NCBI GenBank assembly: GCA_003712125.1
Contig: RHLF01000002.1
Coordinates: 806,001-870,000, forward strand
Reading direction: 5' to 3'
Length of the DNA: 64,000 nt
Source of the DNA: Allomuricauda sp.
GTDB lineage: Bacteria > Bacteroidota > Bacteroidia > Flavobacteriales > Flavobacteriaceae
The notes beneath the pieces were generated by a model, which was not told the DNA's origin, ran no database searches, and saw only the letters and a list, made by a program, of their open reading frames with translations. How positions within the stretch are numbered: position 1 is the first letter of the stretch; the number at the start of each line of letters is the position of its first letter. The translations under genes were made by a program, and so were the position numbers. Positions 1 through 11,800 of the stretch are shown here, one piece after another.

Positions 1-291
1 AAAGAAGCACCTGCTTTTCAGTTGGGTGCCGACGAGTTGCACTACCTATTTGCCAATGATGAGGCGACGGCGGTTCCTAAATATATGGATCAGGTGCTTC
101 AGGTTTCAGGTACTGTTACTGAAATGGAGGAAACCAATATTGTATTGGACCAGCGCGTGTTGGTCAACTTTCTACCCGGTGCAGTAAGTGATTTTCAAGA
201 TGGTCAGACCATTGTGATCAAAGGACGATGTGTAGGTTTTGACGAATTATTGCTTCAGGTAAAAATCGATCAAGCTACCCTAATCAAATAA
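1..291 (+). CDS. tRNA_anti-like (OB-fold) protein, truncated by left window edge
   Basis: Frame is open from base 1 (KEAPAFQLGADELHYLF...); OB-fold-like strand pattern VLQVSGTVTEM...IVIKGRCVGFDELLLQVKIDQATLIK. Confidence 0.55.
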   Translation, partial: KEAPAFQLGADELHYLFANDEATAVPKYMDQVLQVSGTVTEMEETNIVLDQRVLVNFLPGAVSDFQDGQTIVIKGRCVGFDELLLQVKIDQATLIK

Positions 292-311
292 GAACACTAA
301 AACCAAATAAA

Positions 312-1166
312 ATGAATATTAAAAGATTGATATATATCGCACTGCTAACACCCATTTGTTTTTTTGGGCAAGATGATTTGTTGGCTGAAATTGATACGGT
401 AAGCGCAGATGACTATAAAGCCGCCGCTTTTAAGGGGCTCAAAATTGTAAACTTCGAATCGACCAAAATGGTGGGCCAAAAAGAATTATACTTTGTGGTT
501 TCTCACAGGTTTGGTTCTGTCAAGACTGGGTTTGAAGACTTTTTTGGACTTGACCAAGCCGTCACCAGGCTCAATTTTATATATGGCGTCACTGACGGAA
601 TCAACGTTGGTGTTTCAAGAAGTTCTTTTCAAAAGATTTATGAAGGTTCCTTAAAACTAAGATTGCTTCGGGAAAAAAAGGGAGGTTTTCCCTTTACTGT
701 TGTTAGTTCGAACAATATTTTGCTCAACACCGCTCTTGATGAAGTGGTATTGCCAGGTCTCACCTTTGAAAACAGATTGGGATATACTGCCCAACTTTTG
801 ATTTCAAAGAAAATTAGTGAAAACCTATCCCTTCAATTGATGCCCACCTTTTTTCATGATAACTATGTGGCGATTGATGAACAACACAATTCACAGTATG
901 TCATGGGCTTTGGCGGACGACAAAAATTGACCAAGCGTTTTTCGCTCAACTTCGACTATGGGCTTCATCTGAACCGTGCCGAAACTTCACCATTTCGAAA
1001 TTCTCTTTCGGTGGGGGTCGATATTGAAACTGGGGGGCATGTGTTTCAATTGCACTTCACCAATGCGCAGCCAATGAATACCAATGGCTTTTTGGGGCAG
1101 GGAACTGGCGATTGGGGCTCGGGTGATTTTTTCTTCGGGTTTAATCTATCACGCGTATTCAACTAA
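312..1166 (+). CDS. DUF5777-like outer-membrane beta-barrel protein
   Basis: Signal peptide MNIKRLIYIALLTPICFFGQ, then amphipathic strand repeats; resembles the DUF5777 family and the paralogue at 3895. Confidence 0.65.
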   Translation: MNIKRLIYIALLTPICFFGQDDLLAEIDTVSADDYKAAAFKGLKIVNFESTKMVGQKELYFVVSHRFGSVKTGFEDFFGLDQAVTRLNFIYGVTDGINVGVSRSSFQKIYEGSLKLRLLREKKGGFPFTVVSSNNILLNTALDEVVLPGLTFENRLGYTAQLLISKKISENLSLQLMPTFFHDNYVAIDEQHNSQYVMGFGGRQKLTKRFSLNFDYGLHLNRAETSPFRNSLSVGVDIETGGHVFQLHFTNAQPMNTNGFLGQGTGDWGSGDFFFGFNLSRVFN

Positions 1167-1177
1167 AAGACCTAAAA

Positions 1178-1444
1178 ATGATCAGCAAAGAAAATATAGC
1201 TAGGGTAGAGGTGCAGAAGGACTTTTGCCAAAAATGCCAGTCTTTAATAAAAACTGAATTGCAAAAGATTGAAAATATCGCCAATGTGATTTTGTATCCA
1301 GAGCATGCCCTGGTAGTCTTCAGTTTTTTCAAGGCCAATGAATTGTCGGTTGCCTTAAATACATTAAGCAGACTGGGGTATCCTGAAATTGGTGAGATGC
1401 CATCCCGAAAATCGAATGAGAACGCCTTGAAATGTGCCTGCTAA
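1178..1444 (+). CDS. HMA-like (heavy-metal-associated fold) small protein with CxxC motif
   Basis: VEVQKDFCQKCQSLIKTELQKIENIANVILYPEHALVVF pattern, CxxC and a C-terminal CAC. Confidence 0.5.
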   Translation: MISKENIARVEVQKDFCQKCQSLIKTELQKIENIANVILYPEHALVVFSFFKANELSVALNTLSRLGYPEIGEMPSRKSNENALKCAC

Positions 1445-1575
1445 ACAAAAGAGATGTTCCCTTTCAAAGCCATTTTTTCGGCTTAACCCAATATTAGTTG
1501 AAAAAAGGGTGAAAGGGGCGCTTTATTTGCCTCGAATATTATAATCCTAAATACAAAAACAAAAATCAATTTAAA

Positions 1576-2805
1576 ATGAAAAAGATGATTAAAATGAAAA
1601 AAGTGATGCTAGCCTTGTTGGTACTGACCACAATAATAGCTTGTGAATCTGAAGATGAAGGTGTAGTAATCGACACCCCAGACCCGATCGGTAATACCGA
1701 TGATGATCCCCAGGATCCAACACCAAATCAAGTACAGTTGCGAACTGATGCTACCTTTGGTCAGGTGCTAACCGATGCCGATGGTTTTACCTTATATTTC
1801 TTTGCTCCGGATAGCGACGGAAATTCCAATTGTACAGGAGGGTGTATTAATGCCTGGCCAGTATTTAACCCTTCCGAGTTAAGCTTAGACAATGGTTTGG
1901 ATGCTTCAGATTTTGGTACAATAACAAGAGAAGATGGTGCAACCCAAACCACTTATAAGGGATGGCCACTTTACCGATTTGCCAACGATGCCGCTGCCGG
2001 TGATGTCAATGGTGATGGGTCAGGGTCTGTTTGGTTTGTGGCAAAACCAGATTACTCAATCATGTTAACCAGAGCACAATTGGTTGGTCGTGATGCCGAT
2101 GGTAATGAAACTAACCTGACCAGTGGGTATGAACCAGGGGATGAGGAGACCACATACATGACCGATGCCAACGGTAACACCCTGTATCTTTTTATCAACG
2201 ATACAGAAGGCACCAATAATTTTACCAATGATGATTTTTCAAATAATGGAGTTTGGCCAATATTTCAGGAAACTGTAATTAATGTGCCCAGTATATTTGA
2301 TGCTGCCGATTTTGGAACTACAACAGTCTTTGGAGAAACCCAAATTACTTACAAGGGTTGGCCCCTATATTATTTTGGTGGTGATGAAAATCGAGGAGAC
2401 AACTTTGGTGTTGGTTTCCCGGTTGCCGGAATTTGGCCCATTTTGAACAACGATACCGAGCCTGCCCCTGAAAATGACCAACAGTCGAGCATTGAAAGAA
2501 CTTTTGAAGTCGGTAATATCGGCGCCTCAGCTTACACCTTTGCTTTCACCAATGTTGAAAATCCTGAATTGGAATTGCAAAGAGGTAAAACCTATGAGTT
2601 TCAAATTAATACTCCAGGTCACCCTTTTTTAATAAAGACAAATCAAAATACAGGAACAGGCAGCACTTTTGATGATGGCGTGACCAATAATGGTGCGGCC
2701 ACAGGTACGATAACCTTTACCGTACCTTCCAATGCCCCTGACACCTTGTTTTATGTCTGCGAATTTCATGCTTCTATGACAGGTCAGATAAACATTGTTG
2801 ATTAA
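1576..2805 (+). CDS. Lipoprotein with two COG4315/PF03640-type repeats and a C-terminal cupredoxin-like domain
   Basis: Lipobox TIIAC; DADGFTLYFFAPDS...CTGGCINAWPVF and TDANGNTLYLFIND...GVWPIF repeats; C-terminal GHPFLIK...FYVCEFHASMTGQINIVD with His/Cys/His/Met type-1 copper pattern. Confidence 0.75.
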   Translation: MKKMIKMKKVMLALLVLTTIIACESEDEGVVIDTPDPIGNTDDDPQDPTPNQVQLRTDATFGQVLTDADGFTLYFFAPDSDGNSNCTGGCINAWPVFNPSELSLDNGLDASDFGTITREDGATQTTYKGWPLYRFANDAAAGDVNGDGSGSVWFVAKPDYSIMLTRAQLVGRDADGNETNLTSGYEPGDEETTYMTDANGNTLYLFINDTEGTNNFTNDDFSNNGVWPIFQETVINVPSIFDAADFGTTTVFGETQITYKGWPLYYFGGDENRGDNFGVGFPVAGIWPILNNDTEPAPENDQQSSIERTFEVGNIGASAYTFAFTNVENPELELQRGKTYEFQINTPGHPFLIKTNQNTGTGSTFDDGVTNNGAATGTITFTVPSNAPDTLFYVCEFHASMTGQINIVD

Positions 2806-2856
2806 GGGCAACAAAAAAATTAAGTTTAGTGTTTCAGTTAGTTAATTTTGGTTAGC

Positions 2857-2890
2857 AATCAGGGAGCCACCTTGGTTCCCTGATTATTTT
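2857..2890 (+). terminator. Intrinsic terminator-like hairpin
   Basis: AATCAGGGA...TCCCTGATT stem followed by ATTTTA, just after the lipoprotein stop. Confidence 0.6.
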
Positions 2891-2956
2891 ATATTGGACC
2901 TTTTACGAAAGCATGCCATGTTGATTAATTTTGTTTCCATGCATTTTGCAAAACAC

Positions 2957-3367
2957 ATGATAAATTCAAAGAACATTGTAGCCGTCCTGCTTGTATCGGT
3001 ACTCATGTTAAGTTGTGAAAGCATGCTGGAAAAAGACATATCAATGGTTGCTCCCGTCGCCTTTTATGAGGCTGATGTGCTCTTAGACGATATGAAAAAA
3101 GGGAGAAAATTTCCAAAGGAGCAGGTAATTTATGTAGAAGGCTACATTAAAGAAACAAACACTAAAAATGGAAATTTCAATATCCTGATAAAAGGAACAA
3201 CCAACCAAAGCCATTACATCATTTGTGAAATGAATGATTCTTTTAAAAAAGCTACCTTAGGTTTGGAAAAAGGGCAAGCTGTCGCAATCAAAGGGGTCTT
3301 AAAGGGATACCTGAACGATGTGATACTTTTAAATTGTGTAATGGACAATACTTTTCTAGATGAATAA
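2957..3367 (+). CDS. tRNA_anti-like (OB-fold) lipoprotein
   Basis: ATG at 2957 gives MINSKNIVAVLLVSVLMLSCES lipoprotein signal; VIYVEGYIKETN...GQAVAIKGVLKGYLNDVILLNCVM OB-fold pattern. Confidence 0.6.
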   Translation: MINSKNIVAVLLVSVLMLSCESMLEKDISMVAPVAFYEADVLLDDMKKGRKFPKEQVIYVEGYIKETNTKNGNFNILIKGTTNQSHYIICEMNDSFKKATLGLEKGQAVAIKGVLKGYLNDVILLNCVMDNTFLDE

Positions 3368-3908
3368 AGTATTACTTCTTTTAACAACCTTGGTTTTGAC
3401 GCTTTCAAATGATAGCTCAGATAAAGTAATTTGTAGGCAGGGCAGCGTATCTTTTTTCTCCTACACCTCGGTAGAAAACATCAAAGCCCAAAACAATCAG
3501 GTTTCGAGTATTATTGATTTTGAAAGCTCAAAGATTGCAGTGAGCATGCTCATGAATGCCTTTGTTTTCGAAAAGGCGTTGATGCGAGAACACTTTAACG
3601 AAAGCTACATTGAGTCTGATATATATCCTAAAGCCACTTTTGAAGGTGAAATCTTGGATTTTGAGCCTGCAATGGAAGGAGCGCAAATACGCATTGTCAA
3701 AGGCTTGTTTACTATGCATGGGGTGGCTGAAGAGCTTGAAATAAAAACGAAAATAGAAAAGTCAGGAAGTACGTTCACCTTGACAGGAAGCTTTGAAACC
3801 TTGGTAGAATCCTACGACATCAACATACCGCCATTATTGGCTGGTAATATAGCAAAGACCATTTCGGTTGATTTTAGATTTGAATATGAGCCTTATGAAG
3901 AAAAGTAG
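3360..3908 (+). CDS. YceI family protein
   Basis: GSVSFFSYTSVENIKAQNNQVSSIIDFESSKIAVSMLMNAFVFEKALMREHFNESYIESDIYPKATFEG is typical YceI. Confidence 0.85.
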   Translation: MNKVLLLLTTLVLTLSNDSSDKVICRQGSVSFFSYTSVENIKAQNNQVSSIIDFESSKIAVSMLMNAFVFEKALMREHFNESYIESDIYPKATFEGEILDFEPAMEGAQIRIVKGLFTMHGVAEELEIKTKIEKSGSTFTLTGSFETLVESYDINIPPLLAGNIAKTISVDFRFEYEPYEEK

Positions 3909-4788
3909 TTGTAGCCTTCTTATTTTGGTGTTGCTTTGGTCGAATGGCGTTTTTGGTCAAGATCTTCTGAATTTATTGGAAGCGGAGCAAAAAGATGAAA
4001 ATCAATATGCACCGTCAGCATTCATGATGACCCGAATTGCCTTTGGTCATTCCACTGAGGTACGCCCGCAAAATGTACTTGATGTCTTTGTTGCCAACAG
4101 GTTTTGGAACACACCCGAAGAAAGCACCCAAAGCTTCGTGGCAGACCGTATGAGCAGTCGAATAGCCTTAGAATATGCCATATCGGATCGATTGACTTTT
4201 GGAGCCGGTGCAACTACCTTTGATGGGTTATTCGATGCACACCTTAAATACCGAGCTGCCTTACAGCGAAACGGAGATGGATGGCCAATCACGCTGACCC
4301 TGTTTCAAAATATGAGCTATGACAGTAGCCCGATTGCCGATCAAAGCGTTTCCGATGATTTTTCTGACAGACTTTCGTTTACCTCCCAGATTTTGGTCTC
4401 AAAACGGTTCAATAAAAATTTCTCCCTACAATTGGCACCCACATTGGTGAATCGAAGTTTAGGTCTGAGTGCGGCGGACCCAACAAGCATTTTTGCGCTT
4501 GGCGCAGGTGTTCGATACAAGCTAGGGCCACATGTGAGTTTTGTGTCGGAGTATTACCAAGTTTTTAATCCACTTGAGTCTAGAACCACATTTGATCCAA
4601 TAGCTTTTGGGGTCAACTGGGAATTGGGGGACTTGATGCTCCAATTCATGCTGACCAATTCTTGGTTTATGGTTGAAGATGCTTTCATTACCCGTACCCC
4701 CAACAATTTTAATTTTCGGAACCCCAATTTGAATTTTGGATTTAACGCCACCTACGTCATCCATTTCAAGAACAAGCTAAAAAAGTAA
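3895..4788 (+). CDS. DUF5777-like outer-membrane beta-barrel protein
   Basis: ATG 3895 gives signal peptide MKKSSCSLLILVLLWSNGVFGQ; barrel repeats; overlaps the end of the YceI CDS. Confidence 0.65.
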   Translation: MKKSSCSLLILVLLWSNGVFGQDLLNLLEAEQKDENQYAPSAFMMTRIAFGHSTEVRPQNVLDVFVANRFWNTPEESTQSFVADRMSSRIALEYAISDRLTFGAGATTFDGLFDAHLKYRAALQRNGDGWPITLTLFQNMSYDSSPIADQSVSDDFSDRLSFTSQILVSKRFNKNFSLQLAPTLVNRSLGLSAADPTSIFALGAGVRYKLGPHVSFVSEYYQVFNPLESRTTFDPIAFGVNWELGDLMLQFMLTNSWFMVEDAFITRTPNNFNFRNPNLNFGFNATYVIHFKNKLKK

Positions 4789-4851: not shown

Positions 4852-6045
4852 ATGCCGGGATTTGAATTATTTGGTGAGGCCGAAAGAAATGAGGTAAACA
4901 AGGTACTTGAAACAGGGGTATTGATGCGCTATGGTTTTGATGGCATGCGACAAGACCAATGGAAAGCCCGTGAATTGGAGGCCGCTTTGCAAACGCGGAT
5001 GCAAACCGAATATGCCCATGTTGTAAGTAGCGGTACGGCTGCACTGACCGTGGCTTTGGCCAGCGCCGGAGTTGGCGCTGGTGATGAGGTCATCATGCCC
5101 ACCTTTACCTTCGTGGCCAGTTTTGAATCGATCATAGCCTTGGGTGCCGTTCCTATTCTGGTCGATGTCGATGATACCCTAACCTTGGACCCTAAGGCGG
5201 TTGAAGCAGCAATAACCCCCAAAACAAAGGTCATTATGCCGGTTCATATGTGCGGTTCTATGGCCGATTTGGATGCCTTAAAAGCAATATGCCAAGGCCA
5301 CGAAATCTTATTGCTCGAGGACGCCTGTCAGGCGATAGGCGGTTCTTATAAGGGTCAACCTTTGGGAAGTATAGGTGATTTGGGCTGTTTTTCATTTGAC
5401 TATGTAAAGACCATTACCTGTGGCGAAGGGGGTGCCTTAATTACGAACAACCAGGAGTACTATGAAAATGCCCACAAGTATACGGATCATGGCCATGATC
5501 ATATAGGTCATGATAGGGGGGCAGAAACCCACCCCTTTCTGGGGTATAATTTCCGTATTTCCGAACTCAATGCTGCCGTGGGCTGTGCCCAGATTCAACG
5601 TTTGGATGAATTCTTGGCGATTCAAAAGCGCAACTATACCCATGTAAGAGAGGCACTTTCAAAAATTTCTGAAATATCGTTTAGAAGGGTCCCTGAGGGA
5701 GGAGAGGAGAACTACTCTTTTCTCAATTTTTTTCTTCCTACTGAAGAATTGGCGAAAAAGGCACATCAGGCATTGGTTGAAGGTGGTGTAGATGCTTGTT
5801 TTTATTGGTACGACAACAATTGGCACTACTACCGCAAATGGGAACATCTTACAAACCGAAAGTCGCTGGGAAAACTTCCGATGGAACTCAAAAATGGGTT
5901 GCAGCATATTGGAAGTGTTGACTTTTCTGCCTCCGATCATTGGGTCGGAAGAACGATTTCGTGCTTGGTGAAACTGGGTTGGTCAGAAGAGGAGGTAGCC
6001 AGCAGGGCCACAAATATGGCAGAAATACTTCGTAAAGTGGTTTAA
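4852..6045 (+). CDS. DegT/DnrJ/EryC1/StrS family PLP-dependent aminotransferase
   Basis: SSGTAALTVALASAGVGAGDEVIMPTFTFVAS, LLEDACQAIGGSYKG, FSFDYVKTITCGEGG (PLP lysine). Confidence 0.9.
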   Translation: MPGFELFGEAERNEVNKVLETGVLMRYGFDGMRQDQWKARELEAALQTRMQTEYAHVVSSGTAALTVALASAGVGAGDEVIMPTFTFVASFESIIALGAVPILVDVDDTLTLDPKAVEAAITPKTKVIMPVHMCGSMADLDALKAICQGHEILLLEDACQAIGGSYKGQPLGSIGDLGCFSFDYVKTITCGEGGALITNNQEYYENAHKYTDHGHDHIGHDRGAETHPFLGYNFRISELNAAVGCAQIQRLDEFLAIQKRNYTHVREALSKISEISFRRVPEGGEENYSFLNFFLPTEELAKKAHQALVEGGVDACFYWYDNNWHYYRKWEHLTNRKSLGKLPMELKNGLQHIGSVDFSASDHWVGRTISCLVKLGWSEEEVASRATNMAEILRKVV

Positions 6046-7187: not shown

Positions 7188-8701
7188 TCTTTATCTGTAT
7201 TTCGCTTTTTCTTGAAAAGCGAGGTAAATCTGTCAGCAATATTTCCAAAACTCATTAATCCCTTATCGGCAGTTGCCCGCTTCGTTAAATAGACACCCAG
7301 TGGCAACATAATTAGGGTAGAAAGCCAAGCTCCAAACATAGGATTGATGGCTCCCTTTTTTGCCGAATTGTCGGCAAATACTCCAATAAAATGATAGGTC
7401 AAAAATAAGACAATGGCAATAACCATTGGAAGTCCCAGGCCACCTTTTCTAATTATGGCACCTAATGGTGCACCTACAAAAAATAGAATAATACACGAAA
7501 AGGCAAAGGCAAACTTTTTATGCAATGACAGGATGTGACGGTTGTATACCTCATAGCGCTTGTTCATTTCCTTCTTTTTGGTGCGCACCGTGGTCAGCAA
7601 ACCACCAATAGAATTTTTGGCATTGCTTAATAATTGTAAACGCTGCCACTCAGGAAACACGGCCAACAAATCTTTGGCTGATGCAATGCTATCCTTCGTT
7701 TTTTCGACCTTTGGGGTAGTTAGGGTTTCTGTTTTTGGAATAACAATATTGTTGGCCGCAGCCACCGAATCGTCTATTACCAAAGGAAAAACACCCATTC
7801 GGGTAATGATATTCTTTGAAAAGGCCTTGACTAATTTTACGTTGTTGTCTTTCAATGAATCAATATCCTTATTGAGCCGAAAAATGTTCTTCATTTTATC
7901 GGTGGTGATATCTGTTTCTTGCTCGAAGTCTTGGTTATTCAGGGATGAGACATCAATATTCTTGATATAAGTGTCAAATTTGGCCCTTGTAAAAGGGTAT
8001 TTTTTCTTTTCCTTATTGGATTTTGGAACGCGTTCTTCGTAATAATTACCATCGTTAAGAACCAATTGTATGATATCCGATTCCTCATCACTTACCAATT
8101 CACCATCTTTGGCTTTGATGACCGTGGTATTGATATTGGACCTATTTTTTTGGTGAATGACCACTCCATCCAATAGGCGGTCTTTTTCCCCTGATTTTTT
8201 ATCCACCTTTATGTTCATGTCAGATCCTTCGATATCGCTAAATACCCCTTCCACAATAACAGCTGCTGGTTTGACCTTGGCTATATTACGGCGCATATTG
8301 AAAATTTTCTGCTCGGATGCTGGGATTACATTATTGGAAAGAAAAAAGGTTCCCACACCCAATAGGATAACGAATATTACAATACTGCGCATGGCCTTTT
8401 GAAGGGAAATTCCAGATGCCTTCATTGCTGCAAACTCATAATTTTCTGCAAATGTTCCGAAGGTGAGAATAGAGGACAGCAATACCGTTAAGGGCAACAC
8501 CTTATCAATTAAGGTGGGCATATAATAAAGCAAAAATTTACCGATGATCCAGATGTCAAGGTCTTTGCCTGCCAAATCATCAATAAACAACCATATCGTC
8601 TGAAATATGAAAATGAACATCAGTATCGCAAACGAACTAAAAAAGTTGAATAGGAAACGCGATAAGATGTATCGGTCTATTATTTGCAAGGCTAGTTTCA
8701 T
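7184..8701 (-). CDS. LptF/LptG family LPS-export permease
   Basis: [53 protein letters not shown]-terminal TM bundle. Confidence 0.85.
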
Positions 8702-8780
8702 CTGTTGCTCAACATTTTTTCAAAGGTCAGATGTAATTCGCCCCGATGTCTAAACTAGTTTGTCGCACAAAATTCTAGGG

Positions 8781-9455
8781 CTAATTTCTTATGATGTAAT
8801 AGCCATCACTTTTGTATTTGGCCTCATCAAAAGTAAAGAAGCTTTTTGACAAGGGCTGATTCGTTTTGAAAGAATTAACTGTGATGGTGGTCTTTGTGCC
8901 ATTTTTCCCTGTTTCAATAAGCTTGTAAATATGTTTGGTTTGGGCATCAATACCGAGTAATATAGAATTTATCTCGGTGTTGGTATCAATGGGTACCAAT
9001 TTGACATACTGTACTTTTCTTCCCTGCACATTCTGAAGAATATCCCATGAATAGGTATGGCCCTTTCTATAAAATGTCAACATTTTTGAAGGGGTGACGG
9101 TATTGTCATCTTCAGATTTATCTTCGATGGTCACTTCTTCGTTGTCAGGAACAATAGTGTATACCTTGTTGCCATCATAAAGTTGCGTGGATCCAAATAC
9201 ATTGGCTTTGTATTTATCGCCTAATATGGTTACATCACCACGCGTCTCACTTTTGGTATTGGCATCTGTGTTTTCTAAGGTGTACTTAAAATCAACATAT
9301 ATATTGTCATAGGTGGTCACCTTCTCATAAACTTCATCAAGTAATGCCTTTGCTTTTTGTGCGTCTTGAGCATTGAGACCCATGCCTCCAATGCAGAGTA
9401 GGGTAAGGGCCACTATTTTCTTAATTCTATTCAACGGTCTGTGTTTTGTTTTCAT
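8781..9455 (-). CDS. lolA: LolA-like outer-membrane lipoprotein carrier
   Basis: Signal peptide, LDEVYEKVTTYDNIYVDFKYTLENT...GDVTILGDKYKANVFGSTQLYDGNKVYTIVPDNEEV. Confidence 0.8.
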   Translation of the reverse strand: MKTKHRPLNRIKKIVALTLLCIGGMGLNAQDAQKAKALLDEVYEKVTTYDNIYVDFKYTLENTDANTKSETRGDVTILGDKYKANVFGSTQLYDGNKVYTIVPDNEEVTIEDKSEDDNTVTPSKMLTFYRKGHTYSWDILQNVQGRKVQYVKLVPIDTNTEINSILLGIDAQTKHIYKLIETGKNGTKTTITVNSFKTNQPLSKSFFTFDEAKYKSDGYYIIRN

Positions 9456-11800
9456 TTGTTCTCGTTTTGTAAAAGCGCATCTAGAGCGTGCATGTCCGGT
9501 ACCAATACCTGACGGGCTTTGCTTCCTTCAAAAGGACCCACAATGCCGGCGGCTTCAAGCTGATCGATAATTCTTCCTGCCCTGTTGTAGCCAAGTTTTA
9601 GTTTTCGTTGAATTAACGAGGCAGAACCTTGTTGGGCAATTACAATGACTTCAGCAGCGTCGCGAAACATCGCATCTCGGTCTGCAATATCATAAGCAAT
9701 ACCCGTGCCAGAATCTTCGCCTACATATTCCGGTAAATGATGCGCATCGGGATAGGCACGTTGGGAACCAATATATTCGGTAATCTTTGCCACCTCAGGG
9801 GTATCAACAAAAGCACATTGCAAACGCACTACATCATTCCCTTGGGTGAAAAGCATATCACCCCGTCCGATCAATTGATCAGCACCCTGGGTGTCTAGAA
9901 TGGTTCGCGAATCAATCTTCGAGGTAACCCTGAAGGCAATTCTTGCTGGGAAATTGGCTTTTATAATTCCGGTTATCACATTTACGGAAGGTCTTTGGGT
10001 GGCTATGATCAAATGAATGCCTGTGGCACGCGCCAATTGCGCCAATCGGGCGATAGGGGTCTCTACTTCCTTGCCTGCGGTCATGATCAAATCGGCAAAC
10101 TCATCAATAATCAATACAATGTAGGGCAAAAACTTATGCCCGTCATTGGGGTTCAATTTTCTTGCTTTGAACTTGGCATTGTATTCTTTTACATTTCGAA
10201 CCATGGCCTGTTTGAGCAGTTCGTAACGGTTATCCATTTCAATACAAAGTGAATTTAAAGTATGAATGACCTTTGTATTGTCTGTGATAATTGCCTCCTC
10301 AGAATCAGGTAGCTTGGCCAAGAAATGACGTTCTATTTTGTTGTATAAGGTCAGCTCCACTTTTTTGGGATCAACCAAAACAAACTTTACCTCGGCAGGA
10401 TGTTTTTTATAAAGCAATGAAGTGATGACCGCATTTAAACCTACCGATTTCCCTTGCCCCGTAGCACCCGCCATGAGTAAATGGGGCATTTTTACCAAAT
10501 CAACAACAAAGGTTTCATTGCTTATCGTTTTACCAAAAGCAATTGGTAATTGCATTTCTGCCTTTTGAAATTTGGTAGATGCGATAACCGATCGCATACT
10601 TACAATGGTAGCATTTTTATTGGGCACTTCAATTCCAATGGTACCTTTTCCGGGTATTGGGGCTATGATACGGATGCCCAGTGCGGCAAGCGATAAGGCG
10701 ATGTCATCCTCAAGGTTTTTGATCTTTGAAATTCGAATGCCCGCTTCAGGAACAATTTCATAGAGGGTCACGGTTGGACCTATGGTGGCTTTGATTTGCG
10801 CAATGCCAATTTTGTAATTTTTTAAGGTGCCAACAATTCGATTTTTATTTTCTTCGAGTTCCTCTTGGTTGATGGTGATACCACCTGAAACTCCATGGGG
10901 ATCGAGCAATTCTAAAGTCGGAAACTTATAGTTGCCCAATTCAAGTTTTGGATCAAATTCCCCAAATTCTTTAACCAGGTTTTCGGCTTTAACATCCTTT
11001 ACCTCTTTCTCCTCTGAAATTTTTGTAACCTCTAAATCGATTTTTTCTTCCTCCAAAGCTTCGGGAAGATTTACATCAAGACCTGCACCTTGGTCTAGTG
11101 GAGGAATATCTTTCTTGTGTGTATAGGTTTCGATTTTTTCCTCAGGTTCCTCCTCAACGTTTAATTCAATAGAACTTTCGAAAGCTGTGGTGGGAACTAT
11201 TTCGGGCTTTTGTTTTTGCTTTGAGCGGAGGTAGGCACCAATGGCCTCTGGTGAAAAATTAAACAAGCGCACGAGAATCACAATCAGCACAAAGGTCAGC
11301 ACAAGAAAAACACCAATTTTTCCAATATAATCTTGCAAAAAATCATTCATTTCGTAACCGACGAGCCCGCCCAATAAAGGTTGTTCATAGGCAAAAAAAC
11401 CAAGTGCAATTGAGGTCCAAATTACACCAACCAATCCCCATATCCATTTGTTGATCAAACCGCTTCCCTTGAGTCCTAGAAAAAGATAAAGCCCAGTAAT
11501 GGCCAATAGCAGGGGGAAAGCAAAAGAGGCCAGGCCAAACCCTTTGTACATGAAGTAATGGCTAACATTGGCGCCAAACTTTTTCAGGAGATTTTCTGCC
11601 TCAGCGTTGCGATCACTGAATAAGGGCAAGGTACTTTGATCGGCTTGCCAAGTGAAATAGTATGAAGTGAACGAGAAAAATAGGGCAATGGCGAGTACAA
11701 TCAAAAGACTGCCAAAAATGATTTTGTTTTGTTTTGAAAAAAAAGAAGACGCCTTTTTCTTTTGGGTCTTTGATTTGGAAGTTCTTCTTTTTTTGGCCAT
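9452..11800 (-). CDS. ftsK: DNA translocase FtsK/SpoIIIE
   Basis: Four N-terminal TMs; PHLLMAGATGQGKSVGLNAVITSLLYKKHPAEVKFVLVDPKKVE; C-terminal gamma domain. Confidence 0.95.
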   Translation of the reverse strand: MAKKRRTSKSKTQKKKASSFFSKQNKIIFGSLLIVLAIALFFSFTSYYFTWQADQSTLPLFSDRNAEAENLLKKFGANVSHYFMYKGFGLASFAFPLLLAITGLYLFLGLKGSGLINKWIWGLVGVIWTSIALGFFAYEQPLLGGLVGYEMNDFLQDYIGKIGVFLVLTFVLIVILVRLFNFSPEAIGAYLRSKQKQKPEIVPTTAFESSIELNVEEEPEEKIETYTHKKDIPPLDQGAGLDVNLPEALEEEKIDLEVTKISEEKEVKDVKAENLVKEFGEFDPKLELGNYKFPTLELLDPHGVSGGITINQEELEENKNRIVGTLKNYKIGIAQIKATIGPTVTLYEIVPEAGIRISKIKNLEDDIALSLAALGIRIIAPIPGKGTIGIEVPNKNATIVSMRSVIASTKFQKAEMQLPIAFGKTISNETFVVDLVKMPHLLMAGATGQGKSVGLNAVITSLLYKKHPAEVKFVLVDPKKVELTLYNKIERHFLAKLPDSEEAIITDNTKVIHTLNSLCIEMDNRYELLKQAMVRNVKEYNAKFKARKLNPNDGHKFLPYIVLIIDEFADLIMTAGKEVETPIARLAQLARATGIHLIIATQRPSVNVITGIIKANFPARIAFRVTSKIDSRTILDTQGADQLIGRGDMLFTQGNDVVRLQCAFVDTPEVAKITEYIGSQRAYPDAHHLPEYVGEDSGTGIAYDIADRDAMFRDAAEVIVIAQQGSASLIQRKLKLGYNRAGRIIDQLEAAGIVGPFEGSKARQVLVPDMHALDALLQNENK

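Follow-up and report, generated by a model that had tools for sequence, protein, structure and literature searches.

A Regulated Locus of DUF5777 Barrel, YceI, Cytochrome c, and Cupredoxin Genes in Allomuricauda Is a Candidate Redox Module of the Outer Envelope

Results

Organization of the Locus

We analyzed a stretch of 64,000 nucleotides from Allomuricauda sp. (assembly GCA_003712125.1, contig RHLF01000002.1), which covers positions 806001-870000 of the 3.10-Mb genome and is called the window below. At its left edge lies a cluster of envelope genes that contains two genes for DUF5777 β-barrel proteins. An earlier note on the window had listed seven plus-strand genes here, in the order OB-fold, DUF5777, HMA-like, cupredoxin, OB-fold, YceI, and DUF5777, and both the order and the families (the latter by Pfam) are borne out. 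It had also expected the cluster to continue past the left edge, where we indeed find a further YceI gene, a gene for a monoheme cytochrome c lipoprotein, and a divergent gene for a Cache-LytTR membrane regulator. YceI is thus duplicated too, besides OB-fold and DUF5777. The dedicated regulator and the near-universal partner of DUF5777, a His/Met monoheme cytochrome c, both lie outside the stretch that the earlier note covered. The locus comprises ten genes in total, the divergent regulator and nine co-oriented genes: cytochrome, YceI, OB-fold, DUF5777, and HMA, then Lipoprotein_15-cupredoxin, then OB-fold, YceI, and DUF5777 (Table 1).

TABLE 1 Features of the locus. Negative coordinates lie to the left of the first letter of the window; genes beyond the window were called by a simple script.
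Feature	Coordinates	Strand	Evidence and remarks
Cache-LytTR membrane regulator, 372 amino acids	-2364..-1246	-	LytTR E 2.4e-16; dCache_2 E 3.4e-4
Direct-repeat operator 1	-1162..-1133		before the cytochrome gene
Monoheme cytochrome c lipoprotein	-1063..-686	+	CITCH and axial Met; PF13442 E 1.2e-4, under the Pfam cut-off
YceI-1	-670..-110	+	E 7.4e-13
OB-1, tRNA_anti-like, N-terminal membrane anchor	-110..291 (1..291 inside the window)	+	PF12869; anchor seen in alignment
BB1, DUF5777 barrel, cassette 1	312..1166	+	PF19089 E 5.9e-87
HMA-like four-Cys protein	1178..1444	+	HMA E 0.022 alone; CxxC (C17, C20), C-terminal CxC (C86, C88)
Direct-repeat operator 2, TTCCCTTTCAAAGCCATTTTTTCGGCTTAA	1457..1486	+	upstream of the cupredoxin lipoprotein gene; kept at that place in relatives
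Predicted surface lipoprotein, Lipoprotein_15 and C-terminal cupredoxin	1576..2805	+	PF03640 (COG4315) E 2.2e-42, four repeats
Intrinsic-terminator-like hairpin	2857..2885	+	13 pairs, strong, 3' of the cupredoxin gene
OB-2, tRNA_anti-like OB-fold lipoprotein, cassette 2	2957..3367	+	PF12869 E 2.4e-9
YceI-2, cassette 2	3360..3908	+	PF04264 E 2.8e-11
BB2, DUF5777 barrel, cassette 2	3886..4788	+	PF19089 E 9.7e-71
Rightward neighbor, aminotransferase-like by eye	4852-6045		outside the unit

For OB-1, the PF12869 match has an E value of 1.5e-6 with the protein as cut by the window and of 9.4e-9 with the whole protein. In relatives, the cupredoxin gene is set off by ∼115 base pairs (bp) on either side (medians), and hairpins follow it at the same position in several of them (by eye). 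PADLOC matched none of the ten genes, and anti-phage defense was therefore dropped as an explanation.

DUF5777 Recurs with Cytochrome and YceI Genes across Bacteroidota

DUF5777 is present in 163 of 393 Bacteroidota genomes and absent from all 14 control genomes. In a sample of 301 Flavobacteriaceae genomes, 155 carry it. We assembled 79 barrel-bearing loci spread over the phylum (the window's included), called their genes, and built local profiles. YceI lies within three genes of DUF5777 in 65 of the 79 loci, and a cytochrome of one family with a CX2-4CH motif does so in 65 as well; one or the other is found at this distance in 78 loci and both in 52, and chance is excluded as the cause of this linkage. 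A recurrent neighborhood in other genomes, which the earlier note had set beforehand as the test of its proposal, is found. An OB-fold gene lies within three genes in 31 loci, Lipoprotein_15 is near three of the 79 DUF5777 genes, and HMA is near one.

A protein with a heme, Rieske, or cupredoxin motif is encoded within three genes of the barrel in 71 of the 79 loci. CxxCH motifs occur in 68 of 480 genes at this distance compared with 8 of 646 genes at a distance of at least five genes (odds ratio 13, Fisher p 1.4e-18); as the loci share descent, this p value overstates their independence, but the effect is spread over many families. The slot next to the barrel varies by genus and may hold a cytochrome, a Rieske protein, a plastocyanin-like protein, a Lipoprotein_15-cupredoxin, or a lamin-tail protein. 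For example, L042 has plastocyanin-like proteins that carry a type IX secretion tail. Rieske lipoproteins occur in L100 (by Pfam) and in L053, L101, and L105 (by motif), Lipoprotein_15 proteins occur in L044, L047, and L085, and the cupredoxin slot of L140 and L149 (the two tested) has lamin-tail-domain repeat lipoproteins. Six loci carry surface-type lipoproteins in this slot that look alike (L140, L141, L145, L148, L149, L150; about 8240-10300).

The pairing common to all main DUF5777 clades is that of barrel and cytochrome. One clade (eight rows, full support) keeps the cytochrome and has no YceI in the cassette (L041, L045, L056, L070, L071, L090, L091, L110; barrel near 7900-8900). Its members, where examined, place the barrel in an operon with an ethylbenzene-dehydrogenase-type (EB_dh) heme protein and with 4Fe-4S and NrfD subunits. 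L041 belongs to such an operon and L110 looks similar; the L041-type operon may specify a respiratory complex, as yet undescribed, that has a partner in the outer membrane.

Two Paralogous Cassettes Are Joined in Flavobacteriaceae

A single-protein search with BB1, which reaches close relatives only, returned 80 Flavobacteriaceae loci, with Croceitalea, Pelagihabitans, Winogradskyella, Aureisphaera, Flagellimonas, Maribacter, Hyunsoonleella, and Ulvibacterium among the genera. The complete order LytTR-cytochrome-YceI-OB-BB-HMA-LIP15-OB-YceI-BB (LIP15, Lipoprotein_15) is present in 21 of them, as called by one script, and both barrels flank the HMA gene in 43; there are small deviations, for instance loci in which the cupredoxin gene is absent or has been replaced. 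The surroundings are not conserved: 78 upstream genes represent 53 families, the commonest shared by only 6 loci, and 74 downstream genes represent 52, the commonest shared by only 5. This sets the borders of the unit.

BB1 and BB2 share 26% sequence identity. In a tree of the barrels, BB1 belongs to a fully supported clade of 29 rows, mostly from Flavobacteriaceae and with cassettes of the same order, and BB2 groups with two LytTR-linked cassettes. When 15 more tandem loci were included in a second tree, the cassette-1 barrels formed one group and the cassette-2 barrels another, each with full support. The tandem thus represents two paralogues that were joined, without recent copying, and a recent local tandem duplication is ruled out.

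Other genes recur around the cassette. A lipoprotein of 340-360 amino acids without a Pfam family is found beside it in Flavobacteriaceae (L034, 2056-3072; L040, L042, L051), and at least eight loci have, downstream, an ankyrin-repeat protein together with a secreted protein carrying a type IX tail (L036, 6614-7132; L034, 10201-10992). Part of the latter protein is DOMON-like by eye and has no Pfam match.

A Cache-LytTR Regulator and Its Probable Direct-repeat Operators

In 39 of 48 loci with enough flanking sequence, the LytTR gene and cassette 2 occur together; the other 9 have neither, and no locus has just one of them (p 6e-10, uncorrected for kinship). A conserved direct repeat, TTCCCTTTTAAAGCC - TTCCCTTTCAC, precedes both the cytochrome gene and the cupredoxin gene, with a period of mostly 19-20 bp. 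Its mean score exceeds that of shuffled sequences (17.6 versus 13.7 for 43 loci, and 16.4 versus 13.2 for 18 loci). When we scanned the whole genome for a wider LytTR regulon with the operator pattern, allowing up to three mismatches, we recovered operators 1 and 2 and no site beyond this locus; as the pattern was built from these two, their exact match arises by construction, and the finding is the absence of other sites. We infer that the LytTR protein binds the two direct repeats.

In LytTR systems, direct repeats spaced by about two helical turns lie upstream of the systems' own promoters (PMC6193735). The locus resembles these LytTR regulatory systems (LRS) in that its LytTR regulator is encoded beside direct-repeat operators, and the LRS-like regulators of Bacteroides are membrane proteins, as is the regulator described here (PMC6193735). 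It differs in that a Cache sensor is fused to LytTR, whereas LRS use a separate membrane inhibitor, and in its operator, which has a repeat period of 19-20 bp and deviates in sequence from the reported LytTR consensus (PMC6193735).

Related cassettes are found next to other regulators. In four Flavobacteriaceae loci (L034, L035, L046, L060), genes for a FecI-like sigma factor, a FecR-like protein, and a receptor-like protein of 844 amino acids directly precede an OB-barrel-cytochrome-YceI cassette (by eye), which is the same cassette under other control. In other families (L093, L097, L100, L109, L112), an extracytoplasmic function (ECF)-sigma-like gene and a gene for a protein of ∼400 amino acids with a C-terminal outer-membrane-protein barrel domain lie just upstream.

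Conserved Heme and Copper Ligands of the Cytochrome and Cupredoxin and Conserved Cysteines of the HMA Protein

The cytochrome contains CITCH and AMPP motifs and qualifies as a monoheme class I protein (CXXCH and a distal Met). In 152 relatives, which were chosen for the CX2-4CH motif, the distal Met is conserved in 98% and a Trp in 99%. The C-terminal cupredoxin domain, which the earlier note had proposed, has no Pfam match, yet its conserved ligands and predicted fold confirm it: the type-1 copper ligands His, Cys, His, and Met are invariant in 24 relatives, and the modeled domain (predicted local distance difference test (pLDDT) score >90) matches rusticyanin best and also plastocyanin. The fold of the Lipoprotein_15 repeats could not be used, the middle of the model having pLDDT values of about 27-52, and the cupredoxin domain alone is reliable. 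A search of titles and abstracts in the open literature for COG4315, SCO0930, and PF03640 returned nothing functional.

In Bacteroidetes, an acidic stretch that follows the lipid-anchored Cys serves as the signal for surface export (PMC5080379). The Flavobacteriaceae cytochromes have on average 3.2 Asp/Glu and no Lys/Arg at positions +2 to +8, and an acidic pair follows the lipid-anchored Cys in 92% of the Flavobacteriaceae cupredoxin lipoproteins compared with 25-45% of other lipoproteins.

By itself, the HMA-like protein of the window scores below the cut-off, but HMA is matched by 19 of 21 relatives (best E 4.6e-6), and the earlier assignment to this family stands. Its CxxC and CxC cysteines are conserved to 94-100% in 55 sequences (98-100% for CxxC), and when 301 genomes were drawn independently, each of the 15 top-scoring matches was located within 30 bp of a match to DUF5777. 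The earlier note had placed this protein in the core of a module that it took to be exported; it has no signal peptide, and being cytoplasmic, it does not belong to any exported relay. Its most likely role is to handle copper or thiols in the cytoplasm as part of cofactor supply. The closest four-Cys HMA paralogue is flanked by a weakly CCP_MauG-like gene (L207, 3066-8664; L208, 1629-7111; L210) and, upstream, by a gene of ∼130 amino acids that reads as truncated-hemoglobin-like and has no Pfam match. A weaker, widespread paralogue often clusters with genes for rhodanese or for a persulfide dioxygenase-like metallo-beta-lactamase and with Crp-type regulators (L195-L206, L211, L212), in L195 also near a sulfite-oxidase-like molybdoenzyme.

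The strong conservation of the cupredoxin ligands and HMA cysteines, and the ResB/Cytochrom_C_asm cytochrome c assembly gene on the other side of the closest HMA paralogue in L207 and L208, would fit copper or metal acquisition and delivery, in which the surface cupredoxin binds the metal, the barrel passes it, and the HMA protein handles it in the cell interior for use by cuproenzymes or heme-copper oxidases. We consider this unlikely: no P-type ATPase or TonB-dependent copper receptor is linked at the locus, and the copper parts are the least conserved ones, with the cupredoxin missing or replaced (in some cases by lamin-tail repeats) in several tandem loci and the HMA protein limited to one branch, whereas cytochrome and YceI are near-constant. 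The exported redox or metal system envisaged in the earlier note is supported, and a copper-only module is too narrow.

Barrel, YceI, and OB-fold Proteins

Both DUF5777 proteins of the window are full-length members of PF19089 (291 and 238 bits; cut-off 23.1). Structure models were made for BB1 and the cupredoxin lipoprotein. The AlphaFold2 model of BB1 (66 sequences, pLDDT 94.1) is a 12-stranded barrel, in line with the earlier suggestion that DUF5777 is the probable outer-membrane component. The nearest solved folds are NanC, KdgM, FapF, and OmpG, with template modeling scores of only ∼0.5 on the query, which point to an outer-membrane barrel and do not establish membership in any of these families. 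The acidic-sugar porins KdgM and NanC share the 12-strand size and general fold of the model, but we found no sequence relation to DUF5777 and no linked sugar-use genes.

Both YceI proteins score above the Pfam cut-off (44.5 and 49.6 bits versus 23.7), and their profile retrieves solved YceI lipocalin structures, 5ixg and 5ixh included. Most solved YceI structures contain ubiquinone-8 or an isoprenoid (PMC9113575). A Riemerella iron-limitation study lists a YceI gene among those changed, but that gene could not be tied to this cassette. The OB-fold profile has one clear match among solved structures, the putative nucleic acid-binding lipoprotein 3f1z (E 7.5e-5), and not CcmE; a role of OB-1 as a CcmE-like heme chaperone agrees in layout only (membrane anchor and OB-fold) and is left as speculation.

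The isoprenoid binding of the YceI family (PMC9113575), together with median gaps in relatives of -4 bp (YceI-OB), -8 bp (OB-YceI), and -11 bp (YceI-DUF5777), that is, overlapping genes, could speak for trafficking of lipids or isoprenoids to the outer membrane by YceI, OB-fold protein, and porin, the cytochrome acting only in redox sensing or as an aid to assembly. Several other redox domains are found beside the barrel, however, and it is the cytochrome, neither YceI nor OB, that the main DUF5777 clades all have as a partner, so that we regard this account as very unlikely.

In Burkholderia, the YceI lipocalin BcnA and the cytochrome b561 LcoA act against lipid peroxyl radicals (PMC9113575). 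By this precedent, the locus would defend the envelope against lipid peroxides or oxidative damage: YceI would scavenge oxidized lipids or carry an antioxidant quinone, the cytochrome c, in place of cytochrome b561, would recycle it, and the barrels would aid the passage of lipids or quinone to the outer leaflet. The retrieval of solved YceI structures and the joint presence of YceI and cytochrome beside the barrel in 52 loci agree with this proposal, and the locus is like BcnA-LcoA in that a YceI lipocalin is genetically tied to a cytochrome. Here, however, a monoheme cytochrome c lipoprotein takes the place of the membrane b561, and an outer-membrane barrel is added. We recognized no b561-like gene in the extended locus or among the recurrent neighbors, which sets it apart from BcnA-LcoA, and the cassette has no aldehyde reductase or peroxidase. 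The proposal also leaves the cupredoxin and the surface-type lipoprotein signals unexplained and does not accommodate the EB_dh/NrfD-linked clade, whose cassettes lack YceI. We therefore hold it to be rather unlikely.

Discussion

With moderate confidence, we read the locus as encoding a redox module in the outer envelope that is under dedicated regulation. This reading draws on the linkage of barrel, cytochrome, and YceI, the exchangeable redox neighbors, the respiratory-type operon in which the EB_dh/NrfD-linked clade retains its cytochrome neighbor, the intact heme and copper ligands, and the barrel model, and further on the surface-export-like lipoprotein signals, the dedicated regulation, and the YceI precedent. 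In the mechanism that we propose, the Cache domain would sense an extracytoplasmic compound, and LytTR would bind both operators and switch on the cytochrome-YceI-OB-BB1-HMA genes and the cupredoxin gene together. The DUF5777 barrels would sit in the outer membrane, and YceI, judging by its family, would ferry an isoprenoid lipid or quinone across the periplasm. Menaquinone is the quinone of this bacterial group. Electrons would then move between the carrier of YceI and the lipid-anchored cytochrome, and on to or from the surface cupredoxin, so that the module would exchange electrons at the outer membrane, either reducing an external or lipid-peroxide acceptor or oxidizing an external donor.

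Several points weigh against this reading. The Pfam match of the cytochrome lies under the curated cut-off, and 8 of the 79 DUF5777 loci (L039, L043, L073, L076, L092, L094, L106, L108) have no recognizable redox partner within three genes. Surface exposure of the cytochrome and cupredoxin lipoproteins is suggested by the composition of their signals alone, and cytochromes of the wider phylum are less acidic (1.9 on average; acidic pair in 33%), so that the export signal is clear only in Flavobacteriaceae. The YceI motif of this group, EHFNENY..ES, departs from what we take to be the canonical YceI sequences. The locus encodes neither a terminal enzyme nor an inner-membrane quinol oxidoreductase, and the electron route is thus not closed. 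Finally, the 12-stranded barrel is narrower than those of Cyc2 (roughly 17 strands) and MtrB/PioB (26 strands) (PMC10654088).

Of the known systems, BcnA-LcoA and the rus system of Acidithiobacillus (Cyc2 and rusticyanin) come closest to the locus. The rus system likewise combines a single c-type heme at an outer-membrane barrel with a blue-copper protein. Cyc2 fuses its heme motif to the N terminus of the barrel, whereas in the locus the heme is on a separate lipoprotein and CXXCH is missing from both DUF5777 proteins of the window, so that the locus does not belong to the Cyc2-type porin-cytochromes. It further differs from the rus system in barrel size (12 strands versus ∼17), in a cupredoxin carried on a lipoprotein with a surface-type signal, in its YceI and OB-fold partners, and in having no oxidase genes. 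The MtrCAB, PioAB, and MtoAB conduits also combine a barrel with c-type cytochromes; with a single heme, a narrow 12-strand barrel, and no multiheme wire, the locus falls outside this group.

The individual families are already known, and in the open-licence PMC literature we found no account of DUF5777 or description of this gene cluster. It is possible, and we put this forward tentatively, that the locus represents a new type of trans-outer-membrane electron exchange in ordinary marine flavobacteria, switched by Cache-LytTR and built from detachable single-cofactor parts (a monoheme cytochrome, a 12-strand barrel, a quinone-carrying YceI, and a surface cupredoxin) in place of a multiheme wire. 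Our analysis brings the orphan families DUF5777, tRNA_anti-like lipoproteins, Lipoprotein_15, and the four-Cys HMA protein together in a single unit that can be tested and for which regulator and operator are defined. If outer-membrane electron exchange proves true, flavobacteria that are abundant in the sea would handle extracellular redox chemistry without multiheme cytochromes.

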